Below are positions 3,599-39,112 of a stretch of DNA of 64,000 nt, in pieces. Source of the DNA: an uncultured Bradyrhizobium sp. Its GTDB lineage: Bacteria; Pseudomonadota; Alphaproteobacteria; Rhizobiales; Xanthobacteraceae. The translations under genes were made by a program, and so were the position numbers. The stretch spans positions 1 through 64,000 of the forward strand of contig NZ_CANSMR010000023.1 in the NCBI RefSeq assembly GCF_947648125.1, given 5' to 3'. The notes below the pieces were generated by a model that was not told the origin of the DNA, ran no database searches, and was given only the letters and a program-made list of their open reading frames with translations. The number at the start of each line of letters is the position of its first letter. Position 1 is the first letter of the stretch.

Positions 3599-3773
3599 TC
3601 GAACCGGGTACGGGTCGAAGGCGGCTGCGCCGACCATCGTCCCGCGGTGACCGGCGTTTGCTCGTCGTCTCGGCGGACCTCCCCACGAGAGAGCTTGCCG
3701 CTAGGGACCCTCCCAGTTTCGGAAGACCGGCGCATTGGCTTGACTGGATCGCCGAACGTGGAGGAGGAGATTT

Positions 3774-6091: not shown

Positions 6092-6205
6092 CGCGACCAT
6101 TTGGCGATTGATGCAGAGAAACGCCCGATCGGACGCAATTTTGGTGATGAGACTGAGAGCGACGTTCCCGTCGCTCCAGACCGGATCAAGCCGGAGCATT
6201 CGAGC

Positions 6206-7130: not shown

Positions 7131-8405
7131 TCAGGCCGCGCGCTGCTCGTTTCCGCAATGGACCTCGATCGCCTCGCCGAGCCTGCGCAGACCCTCGGCG
7201 AATATCTCCAGTTCGATATTGAGCGGGGCAAAAATCTTGATTACTTCGCCGCGCGGTCCGCAGTCCTCGATGAGAAGTCGCCGCCTGCGCGCGTCTTCAG
7301 CGACAGCTGCAGCGATATCTGGATCCCGGAACTGAAGCCCGGCCATCATTCCGATGCCTTTCGTCCGTTGCACAATGGTCGGGTGCTTGGCTGCAGCTGC
7401 CTCCAACCAGTGACCAAGCATCGCCGATCTGTCCTCTACTCCTTTCTGAAACGAACGATCTGACCAGATATCTATAGCGCCTGCCGCGGCGACAAAGGCC
7501 ATGTTGTTTCCCCGGAACGTGCCGTTGTGCTCTCCCGGTGTCCACGCATCGAACTGGGGAGCCACGAGGTTCAGGGCCATCGGGAGGCCGATTCCGCTGA
7601 TTGATTTCGAAAGACAAATAGCATCCGGTACGATGCCGGCGCGTTCGAAGCTGAAGAAAGAGCCGGTGCGTCCGCAGCCGGCCTGCACGTCGTCGACAAT
7701 CAGCAACGCCCCCGTTTTCGAGGCGATCTGCCTTAGCTTCCGAAGCCACGCTTCCGAAGCTACGTTCAATCCCCCTTCGCCTTGCACGGTTTCCACGATA
7801 ATTGCCGCGACCGGGTCTATCCCTCCCGAGGGATCGCCCAACATGGTCTCAAAGCGCTCGAGATCCTCCATGCCTGCGCCATGATAGCCGTCGTAAGGCA
7901 GCCTCACGACGCCGTCCATCGTTCCCTGTAGCCCCCGCCTCGCGTTCAGCGATCCGGTTGCCGCGAGAGCGCCCATCGACATCCCGTGAAAACCATTGGT
8001 GAAGGCCACCACGTTGTGTCTGCCAGTGTACTTGCGTGCGAGCTTCAACGATGCCTCCACGCAGTTGGCCCCCGTCGGGCCGGTGAATTGAAGGCGGTAG
8101 TCGAGCCCTCGCGGACCCAGAATTTGGGTCACGAACTTATCAATGAAATCACGCTTTGCTTTCGTATGGAAGTCGAGCGCGTTTCCGATACCGTCCCGAT
8201 CGAGGTAGTCGATGATGGCACGCTTCAGTGTTGGATGGTTGTGTCCAAGGTTCAGCGAACCGCACCCTGCGACGAAATCGATGAATTCGTTTCCATCCGC
8301 ATCCCGAACGATTGCACCTCGGGCAGTCACGAAAAGATTGGGGGTCTGTCTACAATAGTAGCGGACTCCGGATTCGAATTGATCGAAGATCGTTGAACTG
8401 GTCAA
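7131..8405 (-). CDS. Class III aminotransferase, EctB-like (diaminobutyrate type)
   Basis: The 424-aa PLP enzyme matches the EctB/DABA aminotransferase subgroup of class III: N terminus IFDQFESGVRYYCR, GHNHP, GPTGANCVEASLKLAR, VETVQGEGGL, DDVQAGCGRTG, and PLP lysine Lys267 in LSKSISG. EctB converts aspartate semialdehyde and glutamate to 2,4-diaminobutyrate. No ectA or ectC is in the window, so ectoine synthesis is not supported here. The start is TTG, overlapping the upstream stop as TTGA; the residues after it align with the EctB N terminus, which supports this start. It is the last gene of the luxI operon, so the product may be quorum-linked. Confidence 0.88.
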   Translation of the reverse strand: MTSSTIFDQFESGVRYYCRQTPNLFVTARGAIVRDADGNEFIDFVAGCGSLNLGHNHPTLKRAIIDYLDRDGIGNALDFHTKAKRDFIDKFVTQILGPRGLDYRLQFTGPTGANCVEASLKLARKYTGRHNVVAFTNGFHGMSMGALAATGSLNARRGLQGTMDGVVRLPYDGYHGAGMEDLERFETMLGDPSGGIDPVAAIIVETVQGEGGLNVASEAWLRKLRQIASKTGALLIVDDVQAGCGRTGSFFSFERAGIVPDAICLSKSISGIGLPMALNLVAPQFDAWTPGEHNGTFRGNNMAFVAAAGAIDIWSDRSFQKGVEDRSAMLGHWLEAAAAKHPTIVQRTKGIGMMAGLQFRDPDIAAAVAEDARRRRLLIEDCGPRGEVIKIFAPLNIELEIFAEGLRRLGEAIEVHCGNEQRAA

Positions 8406-8614
8406 GCTCGGATGTTCCTTCTTGCGCTCTTCTTCTCCGTGGCGGATACGGACTTTGCCGCCTGCTTCAATTTTCTCCGTATCGACAGCAGATCGCTTGA
8501 GATTGACTCGAGCCCTGCATCGTGTGCGACTCTACTGAGATATGCGAGAGCGTCGGCCATCCTCGCCGCAACAATTTCGGCGGGTTCTTCGGCGTCGACG
8601 GATTCCTCTTTCAT
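8402..8614 (-). CDS. Small protein between luxI and the aminotransferase
   Basis: The product is 70 aa, starting at ATG 8614 (MKEESVDAEEPAE), which overlaps the luxI stop by four bases (ATGA). Its own stop overlaps the aminotransferase TTG start (TTGA). The sequence is acidic then helical (AARMADALAYLSRVAHDAGL) with a basic tail (KKSARRNIRA). Small genes coupled to luxI are known in rhizobia (CinS behind CinI); size and position fit that idea, but I see no clear sequence match. A longer frame upstream exists but lies inside luxI. Confidence 0.7.
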   Translation of the reverse strand: MKEESVDAEEPAEIVAARMADALAYLSRVAHDAGLESISSDLLSIRRKLKQAAKSVSATEKKSARRNIRA

Positions 8615-9225
8615 GCAGCCATCTCCCCAAACTCGCCGCTGCGTAGTCTCACACGCTCGATGCCGTACTTTATGCAATGGTGCTGAGGTCGGATGAATTC
8701 CCGCGGCACGAAGAAGGCGCGCTCAATTTCTCCTTCGATAACATCTGGTTCACCCAGCCAACTCACGCCACGTTTGATGTAGTGGGATAGCAGGTGGGCC
8801 CGGGTTACGCCGACGATGCCGATGCCTGCTGTCAGATCGAGATGTCCCGCGACGGCACAAAGCAGTTCTGGTAGAATGGTCCGACGACAGAACGGATCCA
8901 CCGCCTTGTCGACGCAAACGCGGGTGATTTCCCAGATGTCGGCGGAGTGTGGAAGTTCGCCCCGAACGAGGTGAGGCCAATAGCTCTTCAGCATGTAGGG
9001 CCGGTCGGTACGAAGCATGCGGATAAGGCCACGCACGATCCGCTGTTCATCACGCCAAACCAGATATACGGCGGCAGGGGTATCAAATTCGTCGAATTCT
9101 AGATCGCAGTGATGCAAATGGGGCAGCCCCCGCTGCTGAACGAACACGCGATATCTCAGGCGAGCTTGGGAGGCCAATGCATCTTGGAAAAGATGGGCGG
9201 TGGACAACGAGAATGCTTCGATCAT
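8611..9225 (-). CDS. Acyl-homoserine-lactone synthase (LuxI family)
   Basis: The 204-aa product shows the conserved autoinducer-synthase residues: RYRVFVQQRGLP (Arg and Phe of the N-terminal pocket), CDLEFDEFDTPAAVYLV (acidic cluster), RGLIRMLRTDRPYML, and WEITRVCVD (Glu/Arg pair). Start ATG 9225 follows a GAGGGA ribosome site; the upstream frame has none. It makes an AHL-type signal from SAM and an acyl donor that cannot be predicted; rhizobial relatives use acyl-ACP, branched or aryl acyl-CoA. It heads an operon with a small protein and an EctB-like aminotransferase. The LuxR gene at 1138 is the only receptor candidate in the window. Confidence 0.92.
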   Translation of the reverse strand: MIEAFSLSTAHLFQDALASQARLRYRVFVQQRGLPHLHHCDLEFDEFDTPAAVYLVWRDEQRIVRGLIRMLRTDRPYMLKSYWPHLVRGELPHSADIWEITRVCVDKAVDPFCRRTILPELLCAVAGHLDLTAGIGIVGVTRAHLLSHYIKRGVSWLGEPDVIEGEIERAFFVPREFIRPQHHCIKYGIERVRLRSGEFGEMAA

Positions 9226-9319
9226 GCCGATCCCTCGCTCAAGGACCCGGAATACAAAGCAGTCCGCATCGATTCCCCCTACTGGGAACGTCCCTAGTAC
9301 GGGCAGCATTCTGTGTCGT

Positions 9320-9335
9320 CTTTCGTTCACGAAAG
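9320..9335. promoter_or_regulatory. Inverted repeat upstream of luxI, possible lux-box-like operator
   Basis: CTTTCGTTCACGAAAG is a perfect inverted repeat with 6-base arms and a 4-base spacer. It lies 95 bases before the luxI start codon in the short gap between luxI and the upstream gene. Position and size fit a LuxR-family site, but the bases do not match the classic lux box. Confidence 0.35.
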
Positions 9336-9400: not shown

Positions 9401-10255
9401 CTAGATCAGTTTACTGTGAGACAGGACCCGTCGGTAAAGACCGACAAATTGGCTGACTAGTCCCCAGTTACGATGCGCCGGTTTGTTGTCCAGCAGTATC
9501 GCAAGCGCCCACAGCAGATCGCGATAGGCCACGGAAAATGAACCCTCGATGAGTTCGTCGAGCCGATCGGCCATCGCAGCGTAGCCTGCGTCCGTCGCAT
9601 ACAGGAGCGTATTGCGAAACTCGGCTCGCGCCGTGATGAACTGTCGAACGGTCATCCCGCTTTGCCTCGCAATCTCCACTTCGAAGTCGCGGAACAACGC
9701 CTCCACGACATCTTCGTGATCGAGATCGTCACAGGAGATGGAAACGTCGAGCGGGTTCAGCGCCACCAGTTCCTGACCATCTTCCTTGTGCATTCGCAAC
9801 TTGACGCGCCCCTCGTCAACCACCGGTTCGAGCCGCATGGTGATGAGGTTCTCCCAACCCGGAAATGTGATCCCGTTCCGGATCATGTCGCCCAGTATCC
9901 AGCGAAATTGAGAGAGTACCGGATGGAAGGAGAGCTTCACGTAATGGTTTTTGTACCGTCCGATGAAGTCTCCGTGCGCGGGAAGGTTTGCGGCGTTCAA
10001 TTTGAGCGCCTCAAAAATCGCGACTACAAGCTCCTCTTCGGCCGCAATGCAGCGGATGGCACCCATCTCCTCGTCGACGCCAGTGAGCTGAATGGCTTTG
10101 GAAAAGTGATCGAGGGCCTTCGAGACCCTGGAGGCCACTTTGCGCGGCGCCCTTTCGAAGATGAATTCGACGAACTCGGCGCCGATGAGGCGGACGAACG
10201 GCTCAAGTTTCTTTTCGGGATCGAGATCTACCTTGTTATTCAACTGAATGCTCAA
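9401..10255 (-). CDS. Conserved-looking protein of unknown function in protease cluster
   Basis: The 284-aa product is soluble and mostly helical, with no signal peptide or membrane segment. I recognise no domain. Features include an acidic N terminus (KVDLDPEKKLEPFVRLIG), a YKNHYVKLSFHP stretch, and a helical C-terminal third (LLWALAILLDNK). The start is unclear: TTG 10255 gives the stated length but has no ribosome site. It is the last gene of the minus-strand protease arm, 41 bases behind the papain/C39-like gene, so it is probably an accessory protein, sensor or substrate of that arm. Confidence 0.65.
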   Translation of the reverse strand: MSIQLNNKVDLDPEKKLEPFVRLIGAEFVEFIFERAPRKVASRVSKALDHFSKAIQLTGVDEEMGAIRCIAAEEELVVAIFEALKLNAANLPAHGDFIGRYKNHYVKLSFHPVLSQFRWILGDMIRNGITFPGWENLITMRLEPVVDEGRVKLRMHKEDGQELVALNPLDVSISCDDLDHEDVVEALFRDFEVEIARQSGMTVRQFITARAEFRNTLLYATDAGYAAMADRLDELIEGSFSVAYRDLLWALAILLDNKPAHRNWGLVSQFVGLYRRVLSHSKLI

Positions 10256-10296
10256 GCAGCAGGTCGGCGGACCGACCGAATGACTAGGAGGTTTTG

Positions 10297-11865
10297 CTAG
10301 TGGGACGCGGGCGTCGCTTTGTCAAAGCCGTTGGCATTTTCCGTGAACCAGTTGAGGGCCATCGCCATGACCCGGTTCGACGAACGCGAGAGGATGCCGC
10401 GCGGTACCCTCGCCAGCGAAGCGATCTTCATGCAGGTCTCCTTCGAATAGGGGATGCCGGTCGTGAAATGGCCGCCCTGCAGGAGATCTGTTGCGTCAAA
10501 CAGAAGATCGAACAGACGCGATCCCCCAACCTCCGCGCTCGCCCGCCACATATATCTCGGAAGATCTTCGAGCAACGCTTTGCGCCTGAACTCGCCCAGG
10601 ATCGCCCCGTTACCGTAAACCTCACGTTTCAAGTCAGCATTCGAGACGAGTTGAATGTCCCAGACCACGGGCTTGTCCAGCGGTACAACGATCGCCTGTC
10701 TGGTTGCCTCGACAAATCCGTTCAGCGCCGCGATCGCGGATATCACCGCTTCGACCGGTACCCTTATCTTGTGATAGAGGGGAACGAGCAATGTCTGCGG
10801 GCTGAAACGAATGCCCGTCCGCTCGGAGGCAGAAGACGACAATAGTCCGGGAAATTTGTTGCGGTCGACTATGAGTTTCGAGAAAGGGCCGAGCTGATCG
10901 TCGTGGGCATAGAGCCGCGTCGAGCCGGTCGCAGAGAAAAGCGTGGAGCCGTATTGCACCGGCTTGCCTTCCGGTCGCCCGTATCCGGCGAGTGCCACCG
11001 CATGCAGACCGAGCTCGACTGGCCTGGAGCGCTTGTTCTTCTGCCGGATTAGCGCACCCAAAAGAATTCCCGGAATTCCTGCCCGTAGGTAAGCGGTTGC
11101 GCTGATCAGCAGGAGGTCGATGTTTTCGGCTTTGATATAGCCGGGCTCGAGGCCCACGCTTCGGATGGCGTCGGCAATCTGCTCCGCCGTCAATCCCGAT
11201 CCGGCGGGCAGCGCCCGGCTCATGACTCGCCGGGATTCGGCCGCGGCATTGGTTATCTCCGCCGGCGAGGGAATGTTGTGTTGGAAGATGTGGCCGGTTT
11301 CGTTGAAGACCGACCATAGGGCGCTCGTGGCGCAGGCGGCGACGTCCCGGTCCTGTTCTTGGAACGGTAGTGATCTTACCGATAGTTCAATCCCAAAGAG
11401 GTGAACCTTGTATTCGCGTGTCGCCGGGTACTCCCGGCTCCCTTCCAATCGCGCGTAAGTGACGAGGCAGGTGCGGCCTATGACCGTCGAGGGCAGCGGC
11501 TTCACGACGATGAAGCCGAGGTAGTTGCCCTGCAATTGCGACACGCAGGTCTTGTCGCCGACAATGGCGCGGTCGATCAAGGCCTGGTCGAAGGAGCTGC
11601 TGAAGAAGTGGAGCCGGGAGCATCGCCGACCATATTGCTCGTGACAGCGGGCGTAATAGGCCGCGTAGTCTTCCAGATAGTCGCGATCGGTGTACGGCGT
11701 CTCGACGACAATCGTCCTGGCACCAATGTCCCGCAGATAGTCCTGAAGGTAGCTGAGGTGGGGCTTGGTCGTGGCATCGAGCGCTTGCTTGTGACTGAGC
11801 TCGTTAAGCAAGGTGCCCAGCACGGACGGGTTATAGGTCCGTACTTCGAGCCGCGCTATTGTCAT
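10297..11865 (-). CDS. Papain/C39-fold cysteine peptidase-like protein, copy A
   Basis: The 522-aa product has no signal peptide. A papain/C39-like core lies at about 165-330: oxyanion Gln171, then Cys178 in ACATSALW; His288 in LHAVALAGYG; Asp322/323 in HDDQLGPF. The same four elements occur in the same order in the plus-strand gene at 17709-19271, with the shared pattern C-A-x-S-x-L and H-D-D-x-L-G-P. The N-terminal 160 residues and C-terminal 190 are unassigned; the C-terminal part carries IPVEAVISAI-like segments found in neither standard C39 nor ABC transporters. No ABC or membrane domain is present, so it is not a bacteriocin exporter. It follows a 68-aa gene by 26 bases. Peptidase activity is inferred. 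Confidence 0.72.
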   Translation of the reverse strand: MTIARLEVRTYNPSVLGTLLNELSHKQALDATTKPHLSYLQDYLRDIGARTIVVETPYTDRDYLEDYAAYYARCHEQYGRRCSRLHFFSSSFDQALIDRAIVGDKTCVSQLQGNYLGFIVVKPLPSTVIGRTCLVTYARLEGSREYPATREYKVHLFGIELSVRSLPFQEQDRDVAACATSALWSVFNETGHIFQHNIPSPAEITNAAAESRRVMSRALPAGSGLTAEQIADAIRSVGLEPGYIKAENIDLLLISATAYLRAGIPGILLGALIRQKNKRSRPVELGLHAVALAGYGRPEGKPVQYGSTLFSATGSTRLYAHDDQLGPFSKLIVDRNKFPGLLSSSASERTGIRFSPQTLLVPLYHKIRVPVEAVISAIAALNGFVEATRQAIVVPLDKPVVWDIQLVSNADLKREVYGNGAILGEFRRKALLEDLPRYMWRASAEVGGSRLFDLLFDATDLLQGGHFTTGIPYSKETCMKIASLARVPRGILSRSSNRVMAMALNWFTENANGFDKATPASH

Positions 11866-11891
11866 GAGGATCGGCGTCGCCGTACGACCAA

Positions 11892-12098
11892 CTAGAGGGT
11901 GACTGCTCGGCGGAGTTGCTCGGGATCGACTTTAGCGTCCGACATAACTTGATCGGCCGCAGCTTGCGCGGCGCGCTCGGCGGCGTCCAGCTTTCGCTGA
12001 CCTTCGGGCGAGGACACCCACGCGGCCACCAGCCGGTCCATTTCTGCAAGCGTGATCTCGACTCTCAAGCTACTGAAACTCTTAGATTTTTTTGCCAT
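11892..12098 (-). CDS. 68-aa helical protein upstream of peptidase copy A
   Basis: ATG 12098 follows an excellent GGAGAGG site six bases away. The product begins basic (MAKKSKSFSSLRVEI) and continues as an amphipathic Ala-rich helix (LDAAERAAQAAADQVMSDA). It has no known domain. It sits directly before the papain/C39-like gene, as the 62-aa gene does before copy B, so it may be a partner, inhibitor or substrate. An open frame further upstream lacks a better start. Confidence 0.7.
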   Translation of the reverse strand: MAKKSKSFSSLRVEITLAEMDRLVAAWVSSPEGQRKLDAAERAAQAAADQVMSDAKVDPEQLRRAVTL

Positions 12099-12298
12099 CA
12101 ACCTCTCCAGAGCGCGGGCGCGACAAAATGCAGGCGCGTCGCGTGCCATGTCACTCTGCAAAGGATGGCTTAGACCAAAGAAAGGTAGAAGGCGAATCGC
12201 AACTTATCCGGTTTGCAGATTGACGGTCAATGGAGCGTCTCACGGTCACACCCATAAATTGCACTCCCGACAGGAGCCTGGTGCGGGGCCGCCGCCGG

Positions 12299-14551
12299 TC
12301 AATCGTAAGCTCCTCGCCAGGCGGTCCACGGACTGTTGTAGTCTATCGCGTTGGGCGAAAGCGGCATGCGACGCTCGTCGAAGGCCCGCAGCCCGTCCAG
12401 GAAGAGTGGGACCCCTTGAACAGGCGCAGCCGAGGGCGCGCCCGTGAGCTGCGCCAGCGCCATGCTGTCGGGCAGATCAGGGAAATAGGTACTCATGTTC
12501 TGGACCACGACCGACAGCTGGTCCAAGCGGCGCCGGCGGATGAATTCGTAGGCAACCATGGCCGCGGCGATTGGATCGACCCATTTGAGGTCCAGAACGT
12601 CGTAGAGAAAACGGTCCGGGACGCTACCTCGCAGAATATCGCGACGACTCCTAAAAGCCCGCTCAGCCTCGGCGAGCATTTTCAGATCCGCCAGTTGATT
12701 ACGCGCCTCAATCCGTTGCGCAACGAGGGGGTGCAGATAGTGCACCAGCCTACCGATCGGGAGCAGGTATTGCGAAATCACCGGGGTCCCGAACTCGTCG
12801 AGCGTGATGGTGACAAGCGTTGCACGGTTGGGCGAGGCGACCGAGGCGACCGTGTAGGACGTGCCCCCGTTCACCCGTAGCGACACAAGAATCGGACCTC
12901 CCATGTTCCGGAAAACGGCCTCCTTCAGGCCTGGCATTCCCGTCGGCTCGATCGTCGAGGACCACTGGATATGTGACTGATCGTACGAAACGGCGACATC
13001 CAGAAGCGAGCCCTGATCTTCCAGACCCGCCAGCACGTATACGGGCGAGGAGCCCGGTGGCTCGAGGGAAAAATCCTGCAGCGGAAGCTGTCTGATCTTC
13101 GAGTAATCCGTGTATGGCGTACCGGACATGATCCTTCCGCCACCTACTAGGGCCAGCCAGACGTTGAGGTCAGGATCGGACAAGGGACCCAAGGATTCAG
13201 AAAAATCGATGGCACCGTCGTGGACGTCGAACCGACGTGCGAGAGATTCATGGGGAGCGCTGCCCGACCAATCAGCGATCTTGACCGGCTCTTCCGCTTC
13301 GACCACAAGGTCGTGCGAATTCAGCACGCGATGGTCGCGATCGAATATGGTCGCGGCATAGCGACCTCGCGGCACGGCGATCTTTTCCATTCCACGGAAC
13401 AGCTCCCGTTTTCCCGTGGCGAGTTCTTCCAACTCGAGCGAGAGACTTTTGGGGATCGCGACGTCGCCCGTATTCGCCGCGGGGGTCGCGGTCGTCATGC
13501 CCGCGCCGGGCGGCTCGCAATGAAAGGTCAGCGTGGCGTCGTCGAATACAACGATCTCGCGATCGTTGTCGCGGACTTGGGCGCCCTCCACCTGGACGGA
13601 GACTGTGTACCGATCGGGCTTTAAATCCAAGGACGTCGCTTCTCCGGCTATTGCGGTGTCGGTGCGCGCTGGCGCTCGTTTGCCAGTTGAAACGATCGTG
13701 CCAACCGGAACGCCGCTACCGCCTTCGATTCGAACGGTAAACCGAGACGTCGGCGGGGGCCTAAGTCGAATGATGACACCATCAGTTTCGCCGTCGCTGC
13801 CGGCGACGTTGTTGTGAACGCGCTGCGGCTTCATTCTTTCCTTCACGAAGCCACGCAACGTATCAAACCTCACCATCATCGTGTCGTCGTCATCCTCGCC
13901 CCACATCTTCGCCGTGTTCTTTCCGTTCAACCCCGCGAGAAGCGAGGCCGCGAAGCGGCCATCGACGGCGGCGGTAGCAGCGGGGGCAGTCGACTGAAGC
14001 AGAAAGGTCGTAGCTTCGTCCGAGGTTTGAGGGTCGCTTGGCGGAACGATGCCGCCAGGGTTAATCCGTCGTCCGTCGAGGTCGTTCCGACACGCATCGA
14101 CGAAGTAGTACTGGTGTCCCGATCCCAAGTGTTGTCGAAGCCAATAGATGGCCTTGTCGAGCTGGAGGCAGGAACTCCCCGACAGATCCATCGACTTGTA
14201 GCTCGATGCGATCAAAACGTCGGACCGCGCATCGGGTTTGACGAATGAGAAGCCGTGACCGCTGAAATAGAAGAAGAACTCCTCGGTAGCGTTCTGCCCC
14301 TCCTTCCTCAGGTCCAACAATGCTTGCGTTATGTCTTCGGCTGCGGCGTGTCGGCCATCGGCGACCACCGGCTCCGAGCAGAAAATGATCTGCCTGTCGG
14401 CGGCCGCGACCCCTTCTGCATCCCACTTCGCCGATAGCCAGCGCTGGAAATCCTCAGCTGCTTTGAGAGTCCCTTCGAGCTTGGCCGCGATGCTGTTGTC
14501 GCTTACGTTGGCGTACTCTTCGATACCGATTATCAGCGCGCGCCGACCCAT
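12299..14551 (-). CDS. Caspase-like (peptidase C14) protein with C-terminal extensions
   Basis: The 750-aa product starts at ATG 14551 (MGRRALIIGIEEY), the standard beginning of a caspase/metacaspase fold. The catalytic dyad is clear: His99 in FYFSGHG and Cys154 in FVDACRND. The caspase domain covers about 1-260. Residues about 280-460 look like two beta-sandwich repeats (FTVRIEGGSGVPVG; YTVSVQVEGAQV). The C-terminal 200 residues are helical (QRIEARNQLADLKMLAEAERAF). ORF extension to 14704 would overlap the trypsin gene and is rejected. It lies 10 bases behind the trypsin-like gene, suggesting one operon. Bacterial caspases often act in programmed death or immune cascades after cleavage or activation by a partner. 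Confidence 0.9.
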   Translation of the reverse strand: MGRRALIIGIEEYANVSDNSIAAKLEGTLKAAEDFQRWLSAKWDAEGVAAADRQIIFCSEPVVADGRHAAAEDITQALLDLRKEGQNATEEFFFYFSGHGFSFVKPDARSDVLIASSYKSMDLSGSSCLQLDKAIYWLRQHLGSGHQYYFVDACRNDLDGRRINPGGIVPPSDPQTSDEATTFLLQSTAPAATAAVDGRFAASLLAGLNGKNTAKMWGEDDDDTMMVRFDTLRGFVKERMKPQRVHNNVAGSDGETDGVIIRLRPPPTSRFTVRIEGGSGVPVGTIVSTGKRAPARTDTAIAGEATSLDLKPDRYTVSVQVEGAQVRDNDREIVVFDDATLTFHCEPPGAGMTTATPAANTGDVAIPKSLSLELEELATGKRELFRGMEKIAVPRGRYAATIFDRDHRVLNSHDLVVEAEEPVKIADWSGSAPHESLARRFDVHDGAIDFSESLGPLSDPDLNVWLALVGGGRIMSGTPYTDYSKIRQLPLQDFSLEPPGSSPVYVLAGLEDQGSLLDVAVSYDQSHIQWSSTIEPTGMPGLKEAVFRNMGGPILVSLRVNGGTSYTVASVASPNRATLVTITLDEFGTPVISQYLLPIGRLVHYLHPLVAQRIEARNQLADLKMLAEAERAFRSRRDILRGSVPDRFLYDVLDLKWVDPIAAAMVAYEFIRRRRLDQLSVVVQNMSTYFPDLPDSMALAQLTGAPSAAPVQGVPLFLDGLRAFDERRMPLSPNAIDYNSPWTAWRGAYD

Positions 14552-14561
14552 AGCGACGACC

Positions 14562-15497
14562 TCAGAGAAGCGCTCGGATCTCGGCCGAGCTAACCGCTTC
14601 ATTCCGATACATGAAATACCCGGATCTGTGAATTCCAGTGACTTGGCCCGTGGAAACCACGAAGACAGGAGAGCCGGAATTTCCCTGCGTGGTCGAACAA
14701 TCATGAAAGATATCGCTCGCCGCAGTCCCGTCGAGGACCTCCCCCAGGGCGGCGCTCTTCACGCCGAACTTTCCGTCGAAGACGGAGGTAAGGAACAGCG
14801 GGTTGTTGGCCTCGTCCTTTCCGGGGAAGCCGATCGTAACGATGTTTGCACCTGCCGTAGGCACACCGTCCACGAAAGCGACTGGCATGCGAGCCGCCGT
14901 ATCTGCGCGCAGAATCACGATGTCCTTGACTGGATGGATCGCAACCACTTCGACCAGGGCGGCGATGTCGGCGGCCGAGTTCGTTGCAAGGTATTCCTGC
15001 TTGAAAACAATGCGGCCCGCTCCGGGAGCCAGCACCTCCGCACCGCTGCTCAAGACGGCGAGCACGTGCCGGTTCGTTGCTACAAGGCCGGCTCCGACAA
15101 CGAACCCGGTCCCGACATGACGGCTGCGAGCGTCCTCTATCCGACCGACCGAACCCACGTATTGCTTGGCGATCGTCTGAAACTTGCTCCAGGCATCCTT
15201 GAGCTCCACCGGTCTTAGGTCCCGATTAGTGGTCTCGGGAAGGTCGTCGAGTTGGCCGTTTCGGAGAAGCACGACCGGTCGCAATAACCGCACCACAATC
15301 TCAAGAGCCGTGAGCTGCTGCGGAGTGGGCGCCTCGCCGTTCCGCAGGGCCTCAAGCGCCGATTGGGCTTCGGCCTCACTATCGGGAATGTTCAGGGGAC
15401 CGATTATGGACCGGACCTTGCGCACCGCCTCTACAGGCGAATTGCCGGCCAACGCGCGTTCCGCCCGCGCCAACAGTGCGGCGTGATCAGCGGGCAC
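14562..15497 (-). CDS. Cytoplasmic trypsin-like serine protease with helical N-terminal domain
   Basis: The 311-aa product starts at GTG 15497, three bases after the phosphoesterase stop. Residues 1-85 form a helical domain (DHAALLARAERALAG; LTALEIVVRLLRP) like the effector-associated or death-like adaptor domains found on bacterial conflict proteases. Residues about 105-305 form a trypsin fold with His144 (ATNRHVLAV), Asp192 (VKDIVILR) and Ser274 (QGNSGSP). There is no signal peptide and few cysteines, unlike the secreted protease at 4892. Its place between a phosphoesterase and a caspase-like gene suggests it activates, or is activated by, the caspase. The N-terminal family call is an inference from pattern. 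Confidence 0.87.
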   Translation of the reverse strand: MPADHAALLARAERALAGNSPVEAVRKVRSIIGPLNIPDSEAEAQSALEALRNGEAPTPQQLTALEIVVRLLRPVVLLRNGQLDDLPETTNRDLRPVELKDAWSKFQTIAKQYVGSVGRIEDARSRHVGTGFVVGAGLVATNRHVLAVLSSGAEVLAPGAGRIVFKQEYLATNSAADIAALVEVVAIHPVKDIVILRADTAARMPVAFVDGVPTAGANIVTIGFPGKDEANNPLFLTSVFDGKFGVKSAALGEVLDGTAASDIFHDCSTTQGNSGSPVFVVSTGQVTGIHRSGYFMYRNEAVSSAEIRALL

Positions 15498-15500
15498 GGC

Positions 15501-16823
15501 CTAGACCAGTCGTTTGGAATAGATGACTTCGCCAGTCGCACTCCGTACTTCCTCCTCGAGATGGACGCCGTCGATATTCAGCACCGCGTATCCGTGCGGG
15601 GTGAATTTGTCCTCTTCACCAATGATGAATTCGTTGCGGCCCTCGAGCACTACCGCGCGCGGCAGGGGATTTCCTTCCACCGTGACGGCAGGACAGAACC
15701 TCCAGTCGGCTCGCTCATAGGCTGGACCGGTTGCCCGCGACAAGCCAATGGTCAGGTCGCGGCTTTGCGGCATACCGCTATGTCCGATGCATCGTGCCCA
15801 AATCCCGAAGTTGGTGTCCGGCGCCTCGTACACCGTGCATCGATGTTCATGTCCCCAATACCAGGCGAATATCCGCTTGCTGAGCAGCAACTCACCAAAA
15901 CCGGGATGCGACCACAGCTTGGCGCCCTGCTCCTTTTCGAGGTTCGAGTACAGCTGGTGATGTGAAAACAGCACGATCTTGCGGTCGCCGGCCTTGCGGA
16001 CGACCTCGGTGAGCCATCTCACCTGCTCGTCGTCGATGGCGTGATCCTTGTAGGCGACGTCCAGCCCGATCAGGGTCCATTGACTGTTCTGATACGCGAA
16101 GTAGCTGCCTTCCTGGCCGAATGCCGGCAGTGTCCGACCGAAATACGCATCGCCGCCGGAATACATCTCGTGATTGGAATTCAGAGCGCGGTTGATCGCC
16201 CCGCGACGCGTCGGCCAGATTTCGAGAAACCTCTGATCGACCTCCGAACTGGTGCCGGAGTAGTAGACGTCACCGAGATGCAGCAGGAGGTCGAACGGAT
16301 CGCGGTCCTGCCGGACCGCTGCGCCGATCTTCGGAGCGCCGTACAGACCAGTCCCCCAATCTCCCAAAACTGCAATGCGGCACTTGTCCGGAAGCGACGC
16401 AGCGACGTCCGTCTTAGGCCGCACCATCGGATGGGGAATGAGATGTTTCAGCTTTTCCCACACAACGGTCGCCCAGCCCGACCAATCGTTCGTATCGAAC
16501 ATGGCTTCCAGTCCACCGCTGGGCAACGCCGCATATCGGAGATTGGCGGCCTCCCCCGATGCGACCAGGCTCTGCAGTCGAGCCGCACGAGCATCATGCG
16601 GCGCGGTCAAGACCTTCGCGCCAGCGGTTCGCTCGGCGTCCTGGAGCATTCTGAGCACGTTGCCGACGCCGGCCATAATCGTCGCCTTCTGAACGGGATC
16701 GATCGTAGCGTCTCGCCCCGACGCTTCGCCAAGGTTCCCCATCGCCTCGTCGGAGCCGATCGCCTTCGAAATCTGCTCGAATGTGACGACGACTGGATCG
16801 GACGGCTTTGTTTGGGCACCCAT
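15501..16823 (-). CDS. Calcineurin-like metallophosphoesterase
   Basis: The 440-aa product carries the five metal-site blocks in order: GDWGTG, LHLGDVYYSG, SNHEMYSGG, FSHHQLYS and WGHEHR. This matches the calcineurin/purple-acid-phosphatase superfamily. Residues 1-145 are an extra N-terminal helical region (DPVQKATIMAGVGNVLRML) not part of the fold. ATG 16823 follows AGGAG. No signal peptide is seen, so it acts in the cytoplasm, unlike classical purple acid phosphatases. It is the first gene of the minus-strand protease arm. A role in making or removing a nucleotide signal or phosphate is possible; the substrate is unknown. Confidence 0.88.
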   Translation of the reverse strand: MGAQTKPSDPVVVTFEQISKAIGSDEAMGNLGEASGRDATIDPVQKATIMAGVGNVLRMLQDAERTAGAKVLTAPHDARAARLQSLVASGEAANLRYAALPSGGLEAMFDTNDWSGWATVVWEKLKHLIPHPMVRPKTDVAASLPDKCRIAVLGDWGTGLYGAPKIGAAVRQDRDPFDLLLHLGDVYYSGTSSEVDQRFLEIWPTRRGAINRALNSNHEMYSGGDAYFGRTLPAFGQEGSYFAYQNSQWTLIGLDVAYKDHAIDDEQVRWLTEVVRKAGDRKIVLFSHHQLYSNLEKEQGAKLWSHPGFGELLLSKRIFAWYWGHEHRCTVYEAPDTNFGIWARCIGHSGMPQSRDLTIGLSRATGPAYERADWRFCPAVTVEGNPLPRAVVLEGRNEFIIGEEDKFTPHGYAVLNIDGVHLEEEVRSATGEVIYSKRLV

Positions 16824-16900
16824 TCGATCGGCTCCTGCTGCTGTCGGCCAGCGACCGACGTGCTATCATGTCAATTCAGCCAGACAGAAAGGCATCTGAC

Positions 16901-16920
16901 ACCCTAGGCGATACCCTAGG
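16901..16920. promoter_or_regulatory. Tandem ACCCTAGG repeats in the divergent promoter region
   Basis: ACCCTAGG occurs at 16901-16908 and again at 16913-16920, each holding the palindrome CCTAGG, start to start 12 bases apart. They lie in the only gap between the two divergent arms of the protease cluster. A TTGACA on the minus strand (16874-16869) could be part of the phosphoesterase promoter. Operator function is inferred from position. Confidence 0.4.
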
Positions 16921-16929
16921 TTTGACTGC

Positions 16930-17262
16930 TTGCTAAACTTAGCCACGCTCGACCGACTCGGTTTCGTCGCCGACGCCGGCGCGGTCGCCGACAGATGGGC
17001 CGAACTCGTTCAGGTCTCCGAACCGTCCGTACCGCCCGAATTCCGCCGCTGCTACCCTCCCGCACTCCTCAAATCCTGCGTCGCGAGGGCAGTCGAAGCC
17101 ACGGCGGCGATCGGGTGTGATCTTGCGGCCCCGTCGATGCCAGGAAGAATTCGGCTGGTGCCGAACGACGCCTGGACCGAGCTCTGGGCTCGGCCCACGG
17201 GCTATTTGGACTGGGAAAGGGGGATGGTGGACGACCTACGGTCAGCCTACAGCCCCAAGTAG
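16930..17262 (+). CDS. Possible small protein heading the plus-strand protease arm
   Basis: The 110-aa frame starts at TTG 16930 with no clear ribosome site. The sequence has a protein-like composition: VPPEFRRCYPPALLKSCVAR, RIRLVPNDAWTELW, then a C-terminal WERGMVDDLRSAY. The upstream frame is closed by a stop at 16897, so TTG is the only early start. It might instead be a leaky remnant. I recognise no family. Confidence 0.45.
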   Translation: MLNLATLDRLGFVADAGAVADRWAELVQVSEPSVPPEFRRCYPPALLKSCVARAVEATAAIGCDLAAPSMPGRIRLVPNDAWTELWARPTGYLDWERGMVDDLRSAYSPK

Positions 17263-17516
17263 CAGCCATTGGGGCCGCGCCGGCGCCCACAGGAGCGATT
17301 TTCCGTGTATTTCGGGCCGAACGGCCTCCCGAAATGCACGAATCAGGCATAGATTCGGGGTTCCATAACCAATTCCGGGCTAAATCGACCCAAAATGAGC
17401 CCCTAGCGGATCCGATTCGGCAATCTGGCGTTGAGGAATGGTTCCGAGCATGGTAATGCGTCGCGGACCCATCTAGTTCAGCCGTCGTCGGCCGCGCTAT
17501 TCAGGATCGCTTACCC

Positions 17517-17705
17517 ATGGCCGAGAATAACAGCACAAAGCGAGAGGGGTCGCCTGCTCAGACGCAGCAGACGCCGGCTCCGACATTCAGAATTCCTCCC
17601 CTTACTCAGGACCAGAAGCAGTACCTGAGCCGTATCCGCACGTCCGAAGAAAATCCCGATCTCGGCATCCCGCTGGGCGGACCGCGCAACACGCCTGCCC
17701 TGTAG
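17517..17705 (+). CDS. 62-aa protein upstream of peptidase copy B
   Basis: ATG 17517 starts a 62-aa product that is Thr/Gln/Pro-rich at first (SPAQTQQTPAPTFRIPP), then polar (LTQDQKQYLSRIRTSEENPD), and ends LGIPLGGPRNTPAL. The stop is three bases before the start of the papain/C39-like gene, so the pair is tightly coupled. The Gly-Gly seven residues from the end would be a natural cut site for a C39-like peptidase, which cleaves after Gly-Gly; this is an idea only. Confidence 0.65.
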   Translation: MAENNSTKREGSPAQTQQTPAPTFRIPPLTQDQKQYLSRIRTSEENPDLGIPLGGPRNTPAL

Positions 17706-17708
17706 TTC

Positions 17709-19271
17709 ATGGCAAGGTGGAGCGCGGCGCCGGTCGAGGCGGCCGAGTTGCCAGATCAGTGGCTGTGCTCCGCTCCGTTCTCGTTTTTCTCTGACGTCAT
17801 CGAGCAGTTTTTCGCTGCGACCACTAACCGCGCACCGATACATCGGATCTGCACACTAATGCGACAGCAGGGTGCCAACCTGCTCGTCGCTGAATCCGTG
17901 CTGTCACGACCCGACGTGATCGAAGAGATCACGGCCTTGGACGCGCGGTACAACGGCGGAGGCGACGCTCAAGCCATCGCGCTCTCGTTCTTCAAGGTCG
18001 CCCAAGGCGTCAAGAAGCTCGACGATGCCAGCGCGCCTCGGCTGCTGGCGCATGCGGTTCTCATCAACTATCGAGCCAAGGGCTATTCAAACTTCACCCA
18101 CTCCTACGTCTACGAGGCCATTCTGCCTCCCCCTGGTAGGACGCTCGGCCGCCCCCTCGATTTCCCCAGAACCCTTGTGTTGCCCTTGCAGGAATTCAAC
18201 TGCACGGTCCTCGACCGCACGTTCGGTGTCCAGGGCGTGTTGTACTGCCAGCAGAACGACACCTTGCATGTGTGTGCTCATTCCTGCCTCCGCATGGCGA
18301 TCGGCTCGTCGCAGCACTCCACGGGCAAGATCAGCAGCAACAGAATCAATCGGCTCCTCGGCATCAGAGAGCAGGTCGGCTCGCTGGATTCCGGCCAGAT
18401 TGCCGAGATCATCGACGCCTGCGGACTAAAGGCTGCGGTCAGGACGAAGCTCCAGCCCGACGAATACCTGTCCGAACTCGCCGCGCTGATCGATTCTGGA
18501 TACATGGCCCTCCTCGGCTTCACCACGAAGCAGGAGAAGGGAAGGCCCATCATGGGTCACGTCGTCACGGCGTTCGGCCACTCGCGCAACGCCAATCAGT
18601 GGCACGCGCAGGCCATGCAGACATACTCCGGCCCTCGATCATCGCCATATCTACCGAGTAGTTCCTGGATCGACAACTTCATCATCCACGACGACAACCT
18701 GGGTCCCTATCTTTCCCTCAGCGCCCGTTCATTCATGCGTAATCCGGTGATGAGGTTGAACTGCGTCATCGGTCTGCTCCCGGAGTCTGCGATCAGCAGC
18801 AACCACGCGGAGCTGATCGCGGCGGGCGTGCTTAGTCATCTGCTTCCGCTTGTCCGCGAGGACAGCACAAACTACTGGATTCGGTATCTGACCGAGCAGC
18901 GCGACGTCCCAATTCTTAGGTCCGTCTTGATGACCAAAGCTGAATACATGGAACATTTGAAGTGCGCCAAGGCGCACGACCGAACACGGATGGACGCCTT
19001 CGCTCTGTCGAAATTGGATTCGCTCGATGGATCCTTCTGGATGGTCGAATTTAGCCTTCCGCCTCTGTACACGGGCAACGGCTCCAAGCTGGGCGAGGTG
19101 CTGGTAAGCGCGAGAGAAGGCGTTGCCGGAGGCGGCGGCAAGGTTCTCGCCGTCAGATTGCCCGGCAGCGTCCTGTCGCTGGTGGGTGACGACATTCTCG
19201 AACTGGACAGCTGCAAGCTCGCCTCGCATTCAGCTATCTACGAGAAGGCAATGGTCGGGGGACTGCGGTGA
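17709..19271 (+). CDS. Papain/C39-fold cysteine peptidase-like protein, copy B
   Basis: The 520-aa product is a distant homologue of the protein at 10297-11865. Shared elements in order are Gln182, Cys189 in VCAHSCLRMA, His284 in GHVVTAFG and Asp328/329 in HDDNLGPY. It has no signal peptide, membrane segment or ABC domain. The N-terminal 165 residues include an alpha-helical region (YNGGGDAQAIALSFFKVAQG); the C-terminal 180 are unassigned. It starts three bases after the 62-aa gene and is followed by a subtilase gene. Because both copies keep the full Cys-His-Asp set, both are probably active. Substrate is unknown. Confidence 0.72.
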   Translation: MARWSAAPVEAAELPDQWLCSAPFSFFSDVIEQFFAATTNRAPIHRICTLMRQQGANLLVAESVLSRPDVIEEITALDARYNGGGDAQAIALSFFKVAQGVKKLDDASAPRLLAHAVLINYRAKGYSNFTHSYVYEAILPPPGRTLGRPLDFPRTLVLPLQEFNCTVLDRTFGVQGVLYCQQNDTLHVCAHSCLRMAIGSSQHSTGKISSNRINRLLGIREQVGSLDSGQIAEIIDACGLKAAVRTKLQPDEYLSELAALIDSGYMALLGFTTKQEKGRPIMGHVVTAFGHSRNANQWHAQAMQTYSGPRSSPYLPSSSWIDNFIIHDDNLGPYLSLSARSFMRNPVMRLNCVIGLLPESAISSNHAELIAAGVLSHLLPLVREDSTNYWIRYLTEQRDVPILRSVLMTKAEYMEHLKCAKAHDRTRMDAFALSKLDSLDGSFWMVEFSLPPLYTGNGSKLGEVLVSAREGVAGGGGKVLAVRLPGSVLSLVGDDILELDSCKLASHSAIYEKAMVGGLR

Positions 19272-19368
19272 TCTCCTAGGCACTTCCCCAGTTGCGGGCA
19301 GCCGGGCGAGAGAGAAATCGTCCGTGCACGCTTGTCCAGGCGCAGCACCTTGCGAGGAGACTTCGGAA

Positions 19369-21426
19369 ATGGCGAAAAAGACGTCTGTTAAACCGGGGCG
19401 CGGGCCTGCTCGCTCCCGAGCGAGGAAGAAGACCTCTCGAAAACGGACTGCTGCCACCGTCGAGGCGGCTCGTCCCCTCCTGTACGGGTTCAGCCCTCCT
19501 CCCGGTTTCGAACTGCAGCCGGACGGGCTGGGATTCTCCCTGCTTCCGAACGTGATGACGAGCTTCCTGCCGAGTGCCGCCGTGTCTCCGGATGGGCTCG
19601 AAACGCGTCTGTCGCCAATCCCCATCCACGCGGCCAGCGACCTCAAACGACTGTCACTTGGCCTCGAGCGTGGCCTGGATCCTCGCCTGCAACTCGCCGT
19701 CGCGAACTTCCGTATGGGCAAGACTGGCCCGGAGCTTGCTTCTACCGCAGGCGACGAGGTGGCCGTGATCGCGCGTGTGAATTCGGTCGAAACTTGGGAA
19801 GAGATGGCCGACGTCGATCCCGGCGTCGTCCTTGGCACCACCCGCGACGGCAAATCGTGGATCGTCACCGGCCGCGTTCCGATCAAACGTGTCGAGGCTG
19901 TTGGCCGCGGCGAAGGCGTCGTCGCTCTGACGGCTTCGCAGACGGTTCAGCCTAGTTTGGCGGCTACGACGACGGCTATGGAGGTAGTGCCGAGCGCGCT
20001 TCCGAAGAAGAGCGCTCCCGACGGCGGCGAAGGCGTCGTCGTCGGCATCGTCGACTTCGGTTGTGATTTCGCGCACCGAAACTTCCGACTGAAGAACGGC
20101 AAAACGCGCCTCTTGTCGATCTGGCACCAGAGCGGAAAGACGCGGCCAGGCAGTTCGGTCAAGTACGGCAGCGTCTATTCGCGCGCTGAGATCGACAACG
20201 CTCTCTTGGAGGCCAATCCGTATTTGGCTCTCGGCTACGGACCACGGAGCGACCGGGGCGGTACGCATGGCACGCACGTCATGGATATTGCGGTGGGAAA
20301 TGGGAACGGCACGCGCGTTCCGGGCGTCGCGCCGAATGCAGATATCGTATTCGTCGAAGCAGCCGTGACCGACATCGCATGGCATGGTCATGCGACTGTC
20401 GACAGCAGCTTCGGAGATTCGGTCCAGCTCCTCGAAGCCGTGAGGTTTATCTTCGACACGGCCGGTGATCGTCCTTGCGTTTGCAACATCAGCCTCGGCA
20501 CCAACGGCGGACCACACGACGGGACCACGTTGGTCGAGCAAGCGCTCGATGCGATCGTCAGAGAAGCGCCCAACAGAGCGATCGTGATCGCCGCCGGAAA
20601 TGCTCAGGCAGACAACATTCATACCCAGGGCGCCATCGGCAAGGAAGAAACGCACGTCATTGAATGGCGGCAGCAAGCGGCCGGCGGCGGCGAGTTCGAA
20701 TTGTGGTACCCGGGATCCCGCCGTCTGGAAGTCACTCTCGTCGCACCCGATGGCACGAAGTTCGATCCCGTGGCGCCGAACGACTATTTGGCCATGGGTA
20801 GCGGTAGTCAAATGGCCGCTTTCATCAGCAGCCGGCTCAACGATCCCAACAACCGCGACAACATGATCGGGATCTGGATCGCCGAAGGATTGTCGGACGA
20901 GAACTTCAAAGTTGAATTGAGGATCCTGGACGATATTGATGAGGATCTCGAGTACCACGCCTGGATTGAACGCGACGACCGCAAGCAAGGCAGCTTCGTG
21001 AACGCGGTAGCCACGCACACGCTGGGGTCGATCTCTACTGGTCATGACACGCTGGTCATTGGCAGCTACGACGGTCACAAGAAGCATTTTCCCAACGCAT
21101 CCACCTCGAGTGCAGGTCCGACGAGAGATGGCAGGGACAAGCCGGAGCTATCGGCCCCCGGCCAATTCGTACTGGCTGCCATGTCAGGAACGCGAGATGG
21201 CGTTGTGAAGAAGTCCGGGACGAGCATGGCCGCACCAGCGGTGACCGGCCTCGTCGCGTTGCTGTTTGCCGAAGCCAAGCGGCAGCGGAAGGATATTTCC
21301 ATTGGAGACCTGCGAGAGAAACTTATCGCCGGCGTTTCGGTGGCACCGCCTAATTTAACATCAAAGCGGGAATGGCATCCGATCTACGGGTATGGCCGCG
21401 CCAACGGTCGCAGCATTAAACTGTAG
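19369..21426 (+). CDS. Subtilisin-like serine protease (S8), cytoplasmic
   Basis: The 685-aa product starts at ATG 19369 after GAGGAGA; the longer frame to 19123 overlaps the upstream gene and is rejected. The N terminus is Lys/Arg-rich (KKTSVKPGRGPARSRARKK), not a signal peptide. Residues about 125-215 resemble an I9-type propeptide region ending before the catalytic domain. Catalytic blocks are visible: Asp in GIVDFGCDFAH, His in GGTHGTHVMD, oxyanion Asn in VIAAGNAQ and Ser in SGTSMAAPAVTG. A beta-rich insert sits between Asn and Ser blocks. It is probably held inactive until its own or a trans-acting prodomain is removed. A small I9-like gene follows. Confidence 0.92.
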   Translation: MAKKTSVKPGRGPARSRARKKTSRKRTAATVEAARPLLYGFSPPPGFELQPDGLGFSLLPNVMTSFLPSAAVSPDGLETRLSPIPIHAASDLKRLSLGLERGLDPRLQLAVANFRMGKTGPELASTAGDEVAVIARVNSVETWEEMADVDPGVVLGTTRDGKSWIVTGRVPIKRVEAVGRGEGVVALTASQTVQPSLAATTTAMEVVPSALPKKSAPDGGEGVVVGIVDFGCDFAHRNFRLKNGKTRLLSIWHQSGKTRPGSSVKYGSVYSRAEIDNALLEANPYLALGYGPRSDRGGTHGTHVMDIAVGNGNGTRVPGVAPNADIVFVEAAVTDIAWHGHATVDSSFGDSVQLLEAVRFIFDTAGDRPCVCNISLGTNGGPHDGTTLVEQALDAIVREAPNRAIVIAAGNAQADNIHTQGAIGKEETHVIEWRQQAAGGGEFELWYPGSRRLEVTLVAPDGTKFDPVAPNDYLAMGSGSQMAAFISSRLNDPNNRDNMIGIWIAEGLSDENFKVELRILDDIDEDLEYHAWIERDDRKQGSFVNAVATHTLGSISTGHDTLVIGSYDGHKKHFPNASTSSAGPTRDGRDKPELSAPGQFVLAAMSGTRDGVVKKSGTSMAAPAVTGLVALLFAEAKRQRKDISIGDLREKLIAGVSVAPPNLTSKREWHPIYGYGRANGRSIKL

Positions 21427-21539
21427 TAAGGATGCCACGCGCACCGACTTTTGATGCGACGCGACGCCGCCCCCCCGTTAACGTTTCTTGCACCGTTCTC
21501 GGATAGCTCTTAGCTTAAGGGAGCACTAGGCGGACCGCC

Positions 21540-21803
21540 ATGCCCATTGATTTCAAGTCGCTCCACAAATTGGAATCGGTGCCGGGCTCCTTGTCTTCTC
21601 GGACGCGGAGCGCGAACGAGACCGTTCAGGTGCTCGTCAAGCTCCGCAAGGGCGCCAAGCGGCCGTCGTTCATCAAGCCGCGGACGCAGATTACATCCCG
21701 CATCTTTTCGGCCGAAATCACCTTCGGCGACATGCAGCGTCTTGAGGCCGATCCTGCCGTTGAATCGATGTCGCTCAACCGACGCATGCCGGGGATCAAG
21801 TAA
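21540..21803 (+). CDS. Free-standing I9-like subtilase propeptide/inhibitor
   Basis: The 87-aa product starts at ATG 21540 after a GGGAGC/AGGCGGA region. The core (TVQVLVKLRKGA ... SAEITFGDMQRLEADPAVES) has the layout of the inhibitor I9/subtilisin propeptide fold: a strand, helix, strand, then a helix and the strand with DPAVES before the end. No signal peptide or protease domain is attached. Single-domain I9 proteins such as POIA1 inhibit subtilases. It lies 113 bases behind the subtilase gene, the likely target. The fold call is by pattern. Confidence 0.7.
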   Translation: MPIDFKSLHKLESVPGSLSSRTRSANETVQVLVKLRKGAKRPSFIKPRTQITSRIFSAEITFGDMQRLEADPAVESMSLNRRMPGIK

Positions 21804-39110: not shown

Positions 39111-39112
39111 GT

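Follow-up and report, generated by a model that had tools for sequence, protein, structure and literature searches.

The closest described relatives of the locus considered here are protease systems reported to be antiviral or lytic (PMC12799240, PMC13236601). In the NucA-trypsin 'System 3', the core is a trypsin-Endonuclease_NS fusion, and the loci, which are alphaproteobacterial, carry several peptidases each, trypsin and subtilisin among them, with EAD1 fused to components in a subset of the operons (Kaur et al. 2020, PMC7159879). In Caulobacter, LypABC is needed for the lysis that releases gene transfer agents, and LypC joins trypsin and endonuclease domains (PMC13236601). In the nuclease-protease pairs and canu, a trypsin or caspase activates a pro-nuclease, the effector being a nuclease of metallo-beta-lactamase fold (PMC12799240). 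Here we describe a cluster of protease genes at positions 9401 to 21803 of a 64,000-nucleotide stretch of DNA (the window), which belongs to contig C23 in the 8.57-Mb genome of a soil bacterium of the genus Bradyrhizobium. On balance, we favor reading this cluster as a quorum-sensing-controlled, modular system of intracellular proteases, and one that is probably a relative of the trypsin-NucA and CARD-NLR conflict systems, primed by quorum sensing and antiviral or lytic in its predicted role.

The initial annotation had described two divergent arms, and the genes lie where it placed them. The minus arm runs leftward from 16823 through a calcineurin-like phosphoesterase (MPE), a trypsin-like protease, a caspase, the small protein m4, the papain-like m5 and m6, a protein of unknown class; the divergent plus arm runs through the small protein p2, the papain-like p3, a subtilase and an 87-amino-acid (aa) I9-like gene. 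The claim of five proteases of four families also holds, since m5 and p3 are homologous, some members of their family match Peptidase_C39_2 and a catalytic triad is conserved: Pfam assigns the caspase, trypsin and subtilase, and motif and weak profile evidence assigns the papain-like class. As the initial annotation likewise stated, none of the cluster proteases carries a signal peptide by eye. The neighborhood, however, reaches leftward past the region first described, to a quorum-sensing cassette (1123-9330), and this cassette, the boxes before both arms and the recurrent module of a small gene and a papain-like gene were all absent from that account.

How does this locus compare with known systems? 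It resembles System 3 in that its operons encode a trypsin-like peptidase and a subtilase, and two congeners with related clusters, G141 (Bradyrhizobium sp. Gha, contig C47, matching NZ_FOQM01000011.1 in length, the same genus as the window) and G016, carry the trypsin-Endonuclease_NS fusion itself. It differs in that a caspase gene, a phosphoesterase gene and a pair of papain-like genes take the place of NucA, three such fusions compared with the window by tblastn giving hits below E 0.01 only over the trypsin gene; and quorum sensing goes unmentioned in the section of Kaur et al. on System 3 (PMC7159879). LypC resembles the fusions in G141 and G016, while the loci of two further congeners, G125 and G099, are similar to LypABC in outline, and a trypsin protein of G099 with a weak AAA_16 match (below cut-off) recalls LypA. 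The window cluster differs from LypABC and from CARD-NLR systems, the latter marked by an NLR-like STAND ATPase and a CARD-like helical bundle on the trypsin, in its lack of an ATPase/NLR or LypC-like gene and in its extra caspase, papain-like and subtilase genes. With the nuclease-protease pairs and canu it shares a trypsin or caspase encoded beside a hydrolase, but the neighbor here is a calcineurin-like phosphoesterase, and no cluster gene gives a Pfam match to a metallo-beta-lactamase-fold nuclease. Like other LuxI/LuxR regulons, the locus has luxI, luxR and a palindromic box 55-85 nucleotides (nt) upstream of most target starts checked; unlike them, its cassette adds an aminotransferase and a hydrolase, and its predicted targets include intracellular proteases. 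Finally, bacterial ubiquitin-like operons (Multi_ubiq, ThiF and JAB, with a weak Prok-E2 match) adjoin the small-plus-papain-like pair in G015, G142 and Mesorhizobium, whereas the window cluster has no ubiquitin-like or E1 gene, a DUF6791-ThiF gene lying 12 kb off.

As judged from sequence, no family compared matches all of these features, and quorum control and the small-plus-papain-like module would be the new elements. Among the papers listed in our literature searches, none showed quorum control of a caspase/trypsin conflict system or the small-plus-papain-like pair, although a published mention of either is possible; density control of phage defense in general is already discussed in print, to judge by titles. 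The proposal of an undescribed immune or death system survives in part: a proteolytic conflict system is the best reading, given the trypsin-Endonuclease_NS fusions in relatives and the published kin, but the relay between proteases is a proposed one, and the 'phosphoesterase signalling' and 'built-in brake' are inferred steps.

A LuxI/LuxR cassette and lux-box-like palindromes

A predicted LuxI/LuxR cassette adjoins the protease cluster, and lux-box-like palindromes precede luxI, both protease operons and genes for apparently exported proteins. The cassette, which is also found in five other congeners, consists of the LuxR gene (1123), hydrolase and aminotransferase genes and the LuxI-like gene (8611); the receptor gene gives Pfam values of 3.8e-16 for Autoind_bind and 3.7e-21 for GerE. 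A LuxI-like match (E <= 1e-30) was found in 6 of 190 genomes, own genome included, and these cover all three genomes with the subtilase arm, on the same contig each time, a linkage with a hypergeometric P of 1.8e-5 when the own genome is counted and 5.6e-4 when it is left out. The distance from luxI is about 44 kb to p3 in G016 and about 11 kb to the caspase in G141. Because the scan of genome contigs for p3 used short peptide patterns and returned three loci, all distribution counts given here cover sampled genomes only (190 congeners including the own genome for p3, MPE and LuxI; 195 for m5).

The palindrome, with the consensus CTAGGGAATTCCCTAG, stands upstream of luxI, in the divergent protease promoter and upstream of the subtilase gene, and an imperfect palindrome is common to the sequences upstream of luxI in six genomes. 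Distances from box to likely start in the window are 56-80 nt for luxI, the gene at 3774, MPE and the subtilase. The looser pattern CTNGGN6CCNAG has 179 matches genome-wide; five lie in the window versus 0.96 expected, a number reached by none of 100 shuffles. The strict pattern CTAGGN6CCNAG occurs at 11 distinct places in the 8.57-Mb genome, five of them within 17 kb here (2121, 3701, 9282, 16904 and 19276). Strict sites are also clustered near luxI in the cassette-bearing congeners G188 (5 of 10), G036 (5 of 12), G139 (10 of 14), G016 (5 of 12) and G141 (4 of 13), and those at the cluster number one of six in G125, one of four in G099 and none of four in G035.

A 16-mer position weight matrix (PWM) was trained on 21 boxes, comprising four luxI sites (window, G188, G036 and G139) and others near luxI in G188, G139 and G036, with none taken from a protease cluster. 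Against a background maximum of 14.1 over 397,294 bases, this matrix scores 19.0 at the divergent promoter and 18.9 at the subtilase promoter of the window, 21.6 and 18.0 at the matching positions in G141, 17.3 in the subtilase gap of G016, and 21.0 and 17.8 in G125. Boxes thus recur at the matching promoters of both relatives with the subtilase arm, weakly in one of them (G016).

Conservation of the arms and of the small-plus-papain-like pair

The co-occurrence of the arms, on which the initial annotation had staked its case, holds only in part, for the core arms and not for the left papain-like module. Both core arms occur together in 1 of 189 other sampled congeners, G141, at 46-72% identity: MPE, trypsin and caspase at 72, 65 and 54%, and, on a divergent plus arm that runs p2, p3, two unknowns, subtilase and I9, the four shared genes at 46, 50, 62 and 62%, with a trypsin-Endonuclease_NS gene placed between the arms. 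The genes m4, m5 and m6 are missing there and were probably a separate acquisition, and the core arms are a conserved pair in two genomes. Elsewhere the parts are found apart. G016 has the plus arm (small, papain-like, subtilase, I9) without the MPE arm, along with a trypsin-Endonuclease_NS gene of its own, and its integrase shares 55% identity with that of the window; G035 has MPE, trypsin and two caspase genes, and the 19.9 kb read of its 30.7-kb contig (assembly 80% complete) contains no plus arm; G147 has MPE and trypsin; G015 has m4 and m5 adjoining Multi_ubiq, JAB and ThiF genes; and the small-papain pair is also present in G181 and G015. Own genome included, relatives were found in 5 of 190 congeners for p3, 10 of 190 for MPE (E <= 1e-20) and 10 of 195 for m5. 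Since each arm is also found singly, the set is modular.

BLASTP aligns m5 and p3 weakly, and hhalign relates them with a probability of 99.3% (E 1.8e-20, 410 columns), as distant paralogues. In a 25-sequence family alignment, the triad residues Cys178 and His288 are kept in 24 sequences and Asp322 in all 25; Gln171, Cys178 and His288 are each present in at least 90% of them, and the papain-like copy of G125 lacks the catalytic Cys and His. Peptidase_C39_2 is matched (E <= 1) by 7 of the 25 members, at best with 3.9e-5, and window m5 and p3 themselves have no Pfam match even at E <= 1; the C39 class is a putative one, drawn from motif and weak profile evidence. Profile searches of the PDB with both papain-like families returned nothing credible, PHROGs gave no match for the eight papain-like proteins submitted, p3 matched neither plasmids nor viral contigs, and a class-wide search with the m5 profile found matches in 3 of 337 genomes, own included.

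A plausible small open reading frame (ORF) lies directly upstream of 17 of 21 papain-like genes examined, as judged by eye and with chance ORFs of this size being common; the four without one are L017, L018, L019 and L029. All five aligned p2-type partners keep GGP, with 4-9 residues following the GG, while m4-type partners lack it and finish instead with short stretches of similar sequence, for example (R/K)x(Y/V/C)(S/T)L or KFALR. The small-plus-papain-like pair is a recurrent two-gene module. Its m5 type adjoins multiubiquitin/ThiF genes in several genomes and plasmids, and a caspase in Hymenobacter, and papain-like genes are also found on plasmids and phage contigs. On one P2-like phage contig (L068:7745-10064), a cassette of a 61-aa protein and a 701-aa papain-like protein is flanked by the GPA replication gene and the portal gene, a site that Rousset et al. 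(2022, PMC9122126) describe as an antiviral hotspot in P2; this cassette is a candidate stand-alone antiviral pair.

The I9-like inhibitor of the initial annotation is upheld as a gene and not as a function. The 87-aa protein has counterparts of 61-62% identity in two relatives, and its strand/helix pattern looks I9-like by eye, but it has no Pfam match at E <= 0.01, the I9 profile included, and homology with the N-terminal region of the subtilase was rejected (hhalign probability 0.1%, from three-sequence profiles each). With neither match, the protein stays a candidate inhibitor.

A wider family of loci surrounds these clusters. G125 and G099 have an MPE relative, two additional trypsin-like genes and a trypsin-nuclease protein that shares 54-55% identity with its G016 counterpart (some named by similarity only), with two strong boxes in the divergent promoter; the G125 stretch adds the inactive papain-like relative and a gene for a STAND protein. 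The closest LuxR match in these two genomes (65-68%) is limited to the DNA-binding part, and a full-length LuxR (32% identity) lies more than 100 kb away. In G125, an isolated LuxR DNA-binding fragment (L029:8829-9011), 64% identical to the window LuxR C-terminus, sits beside the gene for the inactive papain-like protein, at a distance of 0.4 kb. In G016, a Pycsar cyclase with E1-E2 and a JAB-like third gene (by eye) is found about 9 kb from the trypsin-nuclease gene (L080:4680-8708). A strong box lies between a 135-aa gene and this Pycsar operon, and since its spacing favors the 135-aa gene as target, Pycsar control is not claimed; another box lies 126 nt from a Tle1-like phospholipase gene.

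Possible roles of the cluster

Consider a population at high cell density. Autoinducer-bound LuxR would raise expression of MPE-trypsin-caspase-(m4-m5-m6) and of subtilase-I9, and cells would thereby be stocked with inactive proteases. A trigger, most likely infection, would then start cleavage, and, by analogy with the nuclease-protease pairs and LypABC, the trypsin and caspase might activate the phosphoesterase, the papain-like enzymes or both, by relieving autoinhibition or by removing the small partners. The likely executors would be the papain-like enzymes and MPE; the subtilase's own N-terminal region would keep that enzyme in check together with the I9-like protein, and the outcome would be cell death or arrest, protecting the clone. 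We hold more tentatively to the fuller proposal that an island-borne LuxI/LuxR pair specifically arms a death or immune cascade in which caspase, trypsin and subtilase act with the two papain-like enzymes, its switch module shared with ubiquitin-like and phage-borne loci, such that crowded infected cells die and sparse cells are unarmed. On the same density-gated reading, decay would have left G125 and G099 with no more of the circuit than a LuxR DNA-binding fragment close to like boxes. If true, this would be a natural case of density-decided arming of a suicidal protease cascade, and the question of when altruistic immunity pays would become directly testable, with one regulator, five boxes and two operons in a culturable genus. 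To the extent of the literature searched, control of a caspase/trypsin relay by its own neighboring circuit would be novel, and the unit of a small protein and a C39-like enzyme, found near caspases, ubiquitin-like genes and a phage hotspot, is of interest by itself.

A number of observations weigh against quorum control of a protease cascade. The box patterns were formulated after the sites had been seen, and in the cluster stretches of G141 and G016 the looser one has a modest two matches apiece, a number that 15 of 200 shuffles attain for G141 and 7 of 200 for G016. A first PWM, an 18-mer from six luxI sites that the 16-mer later replaced, left site 16904 outside its top ten, and the best scores in 20 shuffled windows were 9.9-20.0, with 5 of the 20 equaling or exceeding the 16.3 of site 19276. 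Most training boxes of the 16-mer matrix were picked by the strict pattern. With that matrix the luxI sites of G141 and G016 score low (12.6 and 11.9), some sites scoring 14-15 fall within genes, and the divergent-promoter site of G016 has one mismatch, scores 14.2 versus the background maximum of 14.1 and lies at least 98 nt from either gene. G125 and G099 have boxes and no reported LuxI match. The contrast offered by G035, where LuxR has no match at E <= 1e-15 and no site scores above 11.1 over the 19.9 kb read, is limited by its incomplete assembly. The cassette alone was rejected as a marker of the cluster, as the cassette genomes G188, G036 and G139 show no cluster gene in the 40 kb read around it. 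Only a single other sampled congener carries both arms, and it lacks m4-m5-m6. Pfam and PADLOC find no STAND/NLR sensor or ATPase among the cluster genes, one being present in the G125 locus, and the fold assignments are themselves sequence-based.

An alternative is a module for quorum-driven lysis or competition, under identical control, whose purpose would be programmed lysis releasing particles, proteins or DNA, or the killing of neighbors. The same boxes stand upstream of apparently exported proteins and, in G016, of the Tle1-like phospholipase gene, and LypC of the lysis system LypABC resembles the G141 and G016 fusions (PMC13236601). The absence by eye of export signals on the cluster proteases argues against such a role, however, as do the small-papain-like pairs carried by phage contigs, in one case at an antiviral hotspot, and the proximity of the Pycsar operon to the G016 trypsin-nuclease gene, and we consider it rather unlikely. 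The separate occurrence of the MPE arm in G035, the plus arm in G016, small-papain pairs in G181 and G015 and papain-like genes on plasmids and phages could instead reflect a defense-island patchwork, in which separate systems share an island, acquired control by one LuxR through promoter capture, and form no proteolytic relay. G141, where both arms are retained at 46-72% identity with the divergent order intact and the same box on each, speaks against a mere patchwork, and we regard it as improbable.

Least probable by far, in our estimation, is a peptide-maturation module, in which the small genes would encode precursors from which the C39-like enzymes cut a quorum-regulated peptide. The small genes before most of the papain-like genes (by eye, with frequent chance ORFs) and the GGP of the p2-type partners are what such a module would predict, but the GG is close to the C-terminus, 4-9 residues away, and not behind a leader, m4-type partners lack it, no transporter is found among the cluster genes, and several relatives lie within ubiquitin-like operons. 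We retain as our preferred reading a quorum-controlled, modular set of intracellular proteases.

Feature coordinates and neighboring genes

Table 1. Features of the quorum-sensing cassette and protease cluster, in window coordinates.
Feature	Position	Strand	Evidence
LuxR-family regulator (Autoind_bind + GerE)	1123..1845	+	Pfam; copies at 50-68% identity alongside luxI in five further genomes
lux-box-like palindrome before 2196 gene	2121..2136	.	PWM score 17.1
Putative lipoprotein (by eye), predicted target	2196..3176	+	No Pfam match; G188 (L075) relative also preceded by box
141-aa protein, likely signal peptide (by eye)	3173..3598	+	76% identical copy in L075 (G188)
lux-box-like palindrome, 57 nt upstream of 3774 gene	3701..3716	.	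PWM score 16.1
Signal-peptide protein with CxxCH motif (both features by eye)	3774..4895	+	75% identical copy plus box in L075
Trypsin-family protein, probably exported (by eye); real start further in	4616..6091	+	Pfam Trypsin 1.1e-21
Alpha/beta-hydrolase-like gene of cassette (class by eye)	6101..7072	+	
Class III aminotransferase of cassette	7131..8405	-	Pfam 1.3e-77
LuxI-like autoinducer synthase; likely ATG 9225, ORF open to 9330	8611..9225	-	Pfam Autoind_synth 3.8e-9
lux-box-like palindrome, 56 nt upstream of luxI	9282..9297	.	Score 18.9, but in PWM training set
m6, 284-aa protein of unknown class, last in left operon	9401..10255	-	No Pfam, PADLOC or NCBIfam match
m5, papain/C39-like	10297..11865	-	Conserved triad; 60% identical relative in G015
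m4, small 68-aa partner; likely start ~12098, ORF open to 12161	11892..12098	-	45% identical to gene preceding G015 m5 relative
Caspase-family protein; corrected likely ATG 14551	12299..14551	-	Pfam Peptidase_C14 4.4e-10; PADLOC 1.7e-14; 54% identical in G141
Trypsin-like protease	14562..15497	-	Pfam Trypsin_2 1.6e-14; 65% identical in G141
MPE, calcineurin-like phosphoesterase	15501..16823	-	Pfam Metallophos 1.3e-8; 72% identical in G141, 64% in G035
lux-box-like palindrome of divergent promoter, 80 nt upstream of MPE	16904..16919	.	PWM score 19.0
p1, 110-aa ORF, doubtful gene	16930..17262	+	Starts 10 bp past box
p2, small 62-aa partner, GGP close to C-terminus	17517..17705	+	Relatives precede p3 homologues
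p3, papain/C39-like	17709..19271	+	Relatives at 57, 49, 40 and 29% identity
lux-box-like palindrome, 77 nt upstream of subtilase	19276..19291	.	PWM score 18.9
Subtilase (S8); corrected likely ATG 19369	19369..21426	+	Pfam Peptidase_S8 8.4e-26; PADLOC 4.1e-23; 60-62% identical in G016, G141
87-aa I9-like candidate inhibitor (pattern by eye)	21540..21803	+	61-62% identical in G016, G141

The ORF p1 has no relative at E <= 1e-3 among the loci compared and, given also its start so close to the box, may not be a gene; a remnant of a trypsin-NucA gene was ruled out, the fusions compared by tblastn having no match there. An EACC1-type caspase was likewise ruled out (NF047832, 13.3 bits versus a cut-off of 140), and PDB searches with MPE and the caspase gave no match.

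The cluster probably sits on a genomic island. An integrase and a tRNA-Ser lie at 40856-42602, and G+C is about 0.56-0.62 over the first 34 kb and 0.61-0.66 past the tRNA, a modest contrast that fits an island with its left end beyond the contig. The right half (23484-42424) looks like more defense-type cargo: a DUF4011/MTES_1575 helicase-nuclease, an AAA_27 ATPase with a phosphoesterase, a DUF6791-ThiF E1-like protein, a UvrD-M78-PDDEXK protein and an integrase with DUF6538, adjoining the tRNA-Ser(GGA).

Within the cassette, the 2196-6091 stretch encodes lipoprotein-like, signal-peptide and CxxCH proteins (by eye) and a trypsin, two of the genes being preceded by a lux-box-like site. This gene set, boxes included, recurs in G188 (L075), the closest cassette, where the counterparts lie nearby and not inside the cassette. 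In G139, near boxes and luxI, L079:7614-18748 encodes a giant beta-propeller/Roc/phosphoesterase protein and a RelA/SpoT-TPR protein, neighbors that suggest further conflict-type genes under the same circuit. In G141, a protein with AAA_18 and adenylosuccinate synthetase matches (L030:15236-16936) has a box just upstream, and a PurB-like fragment (by eye) is present at the start of L027.

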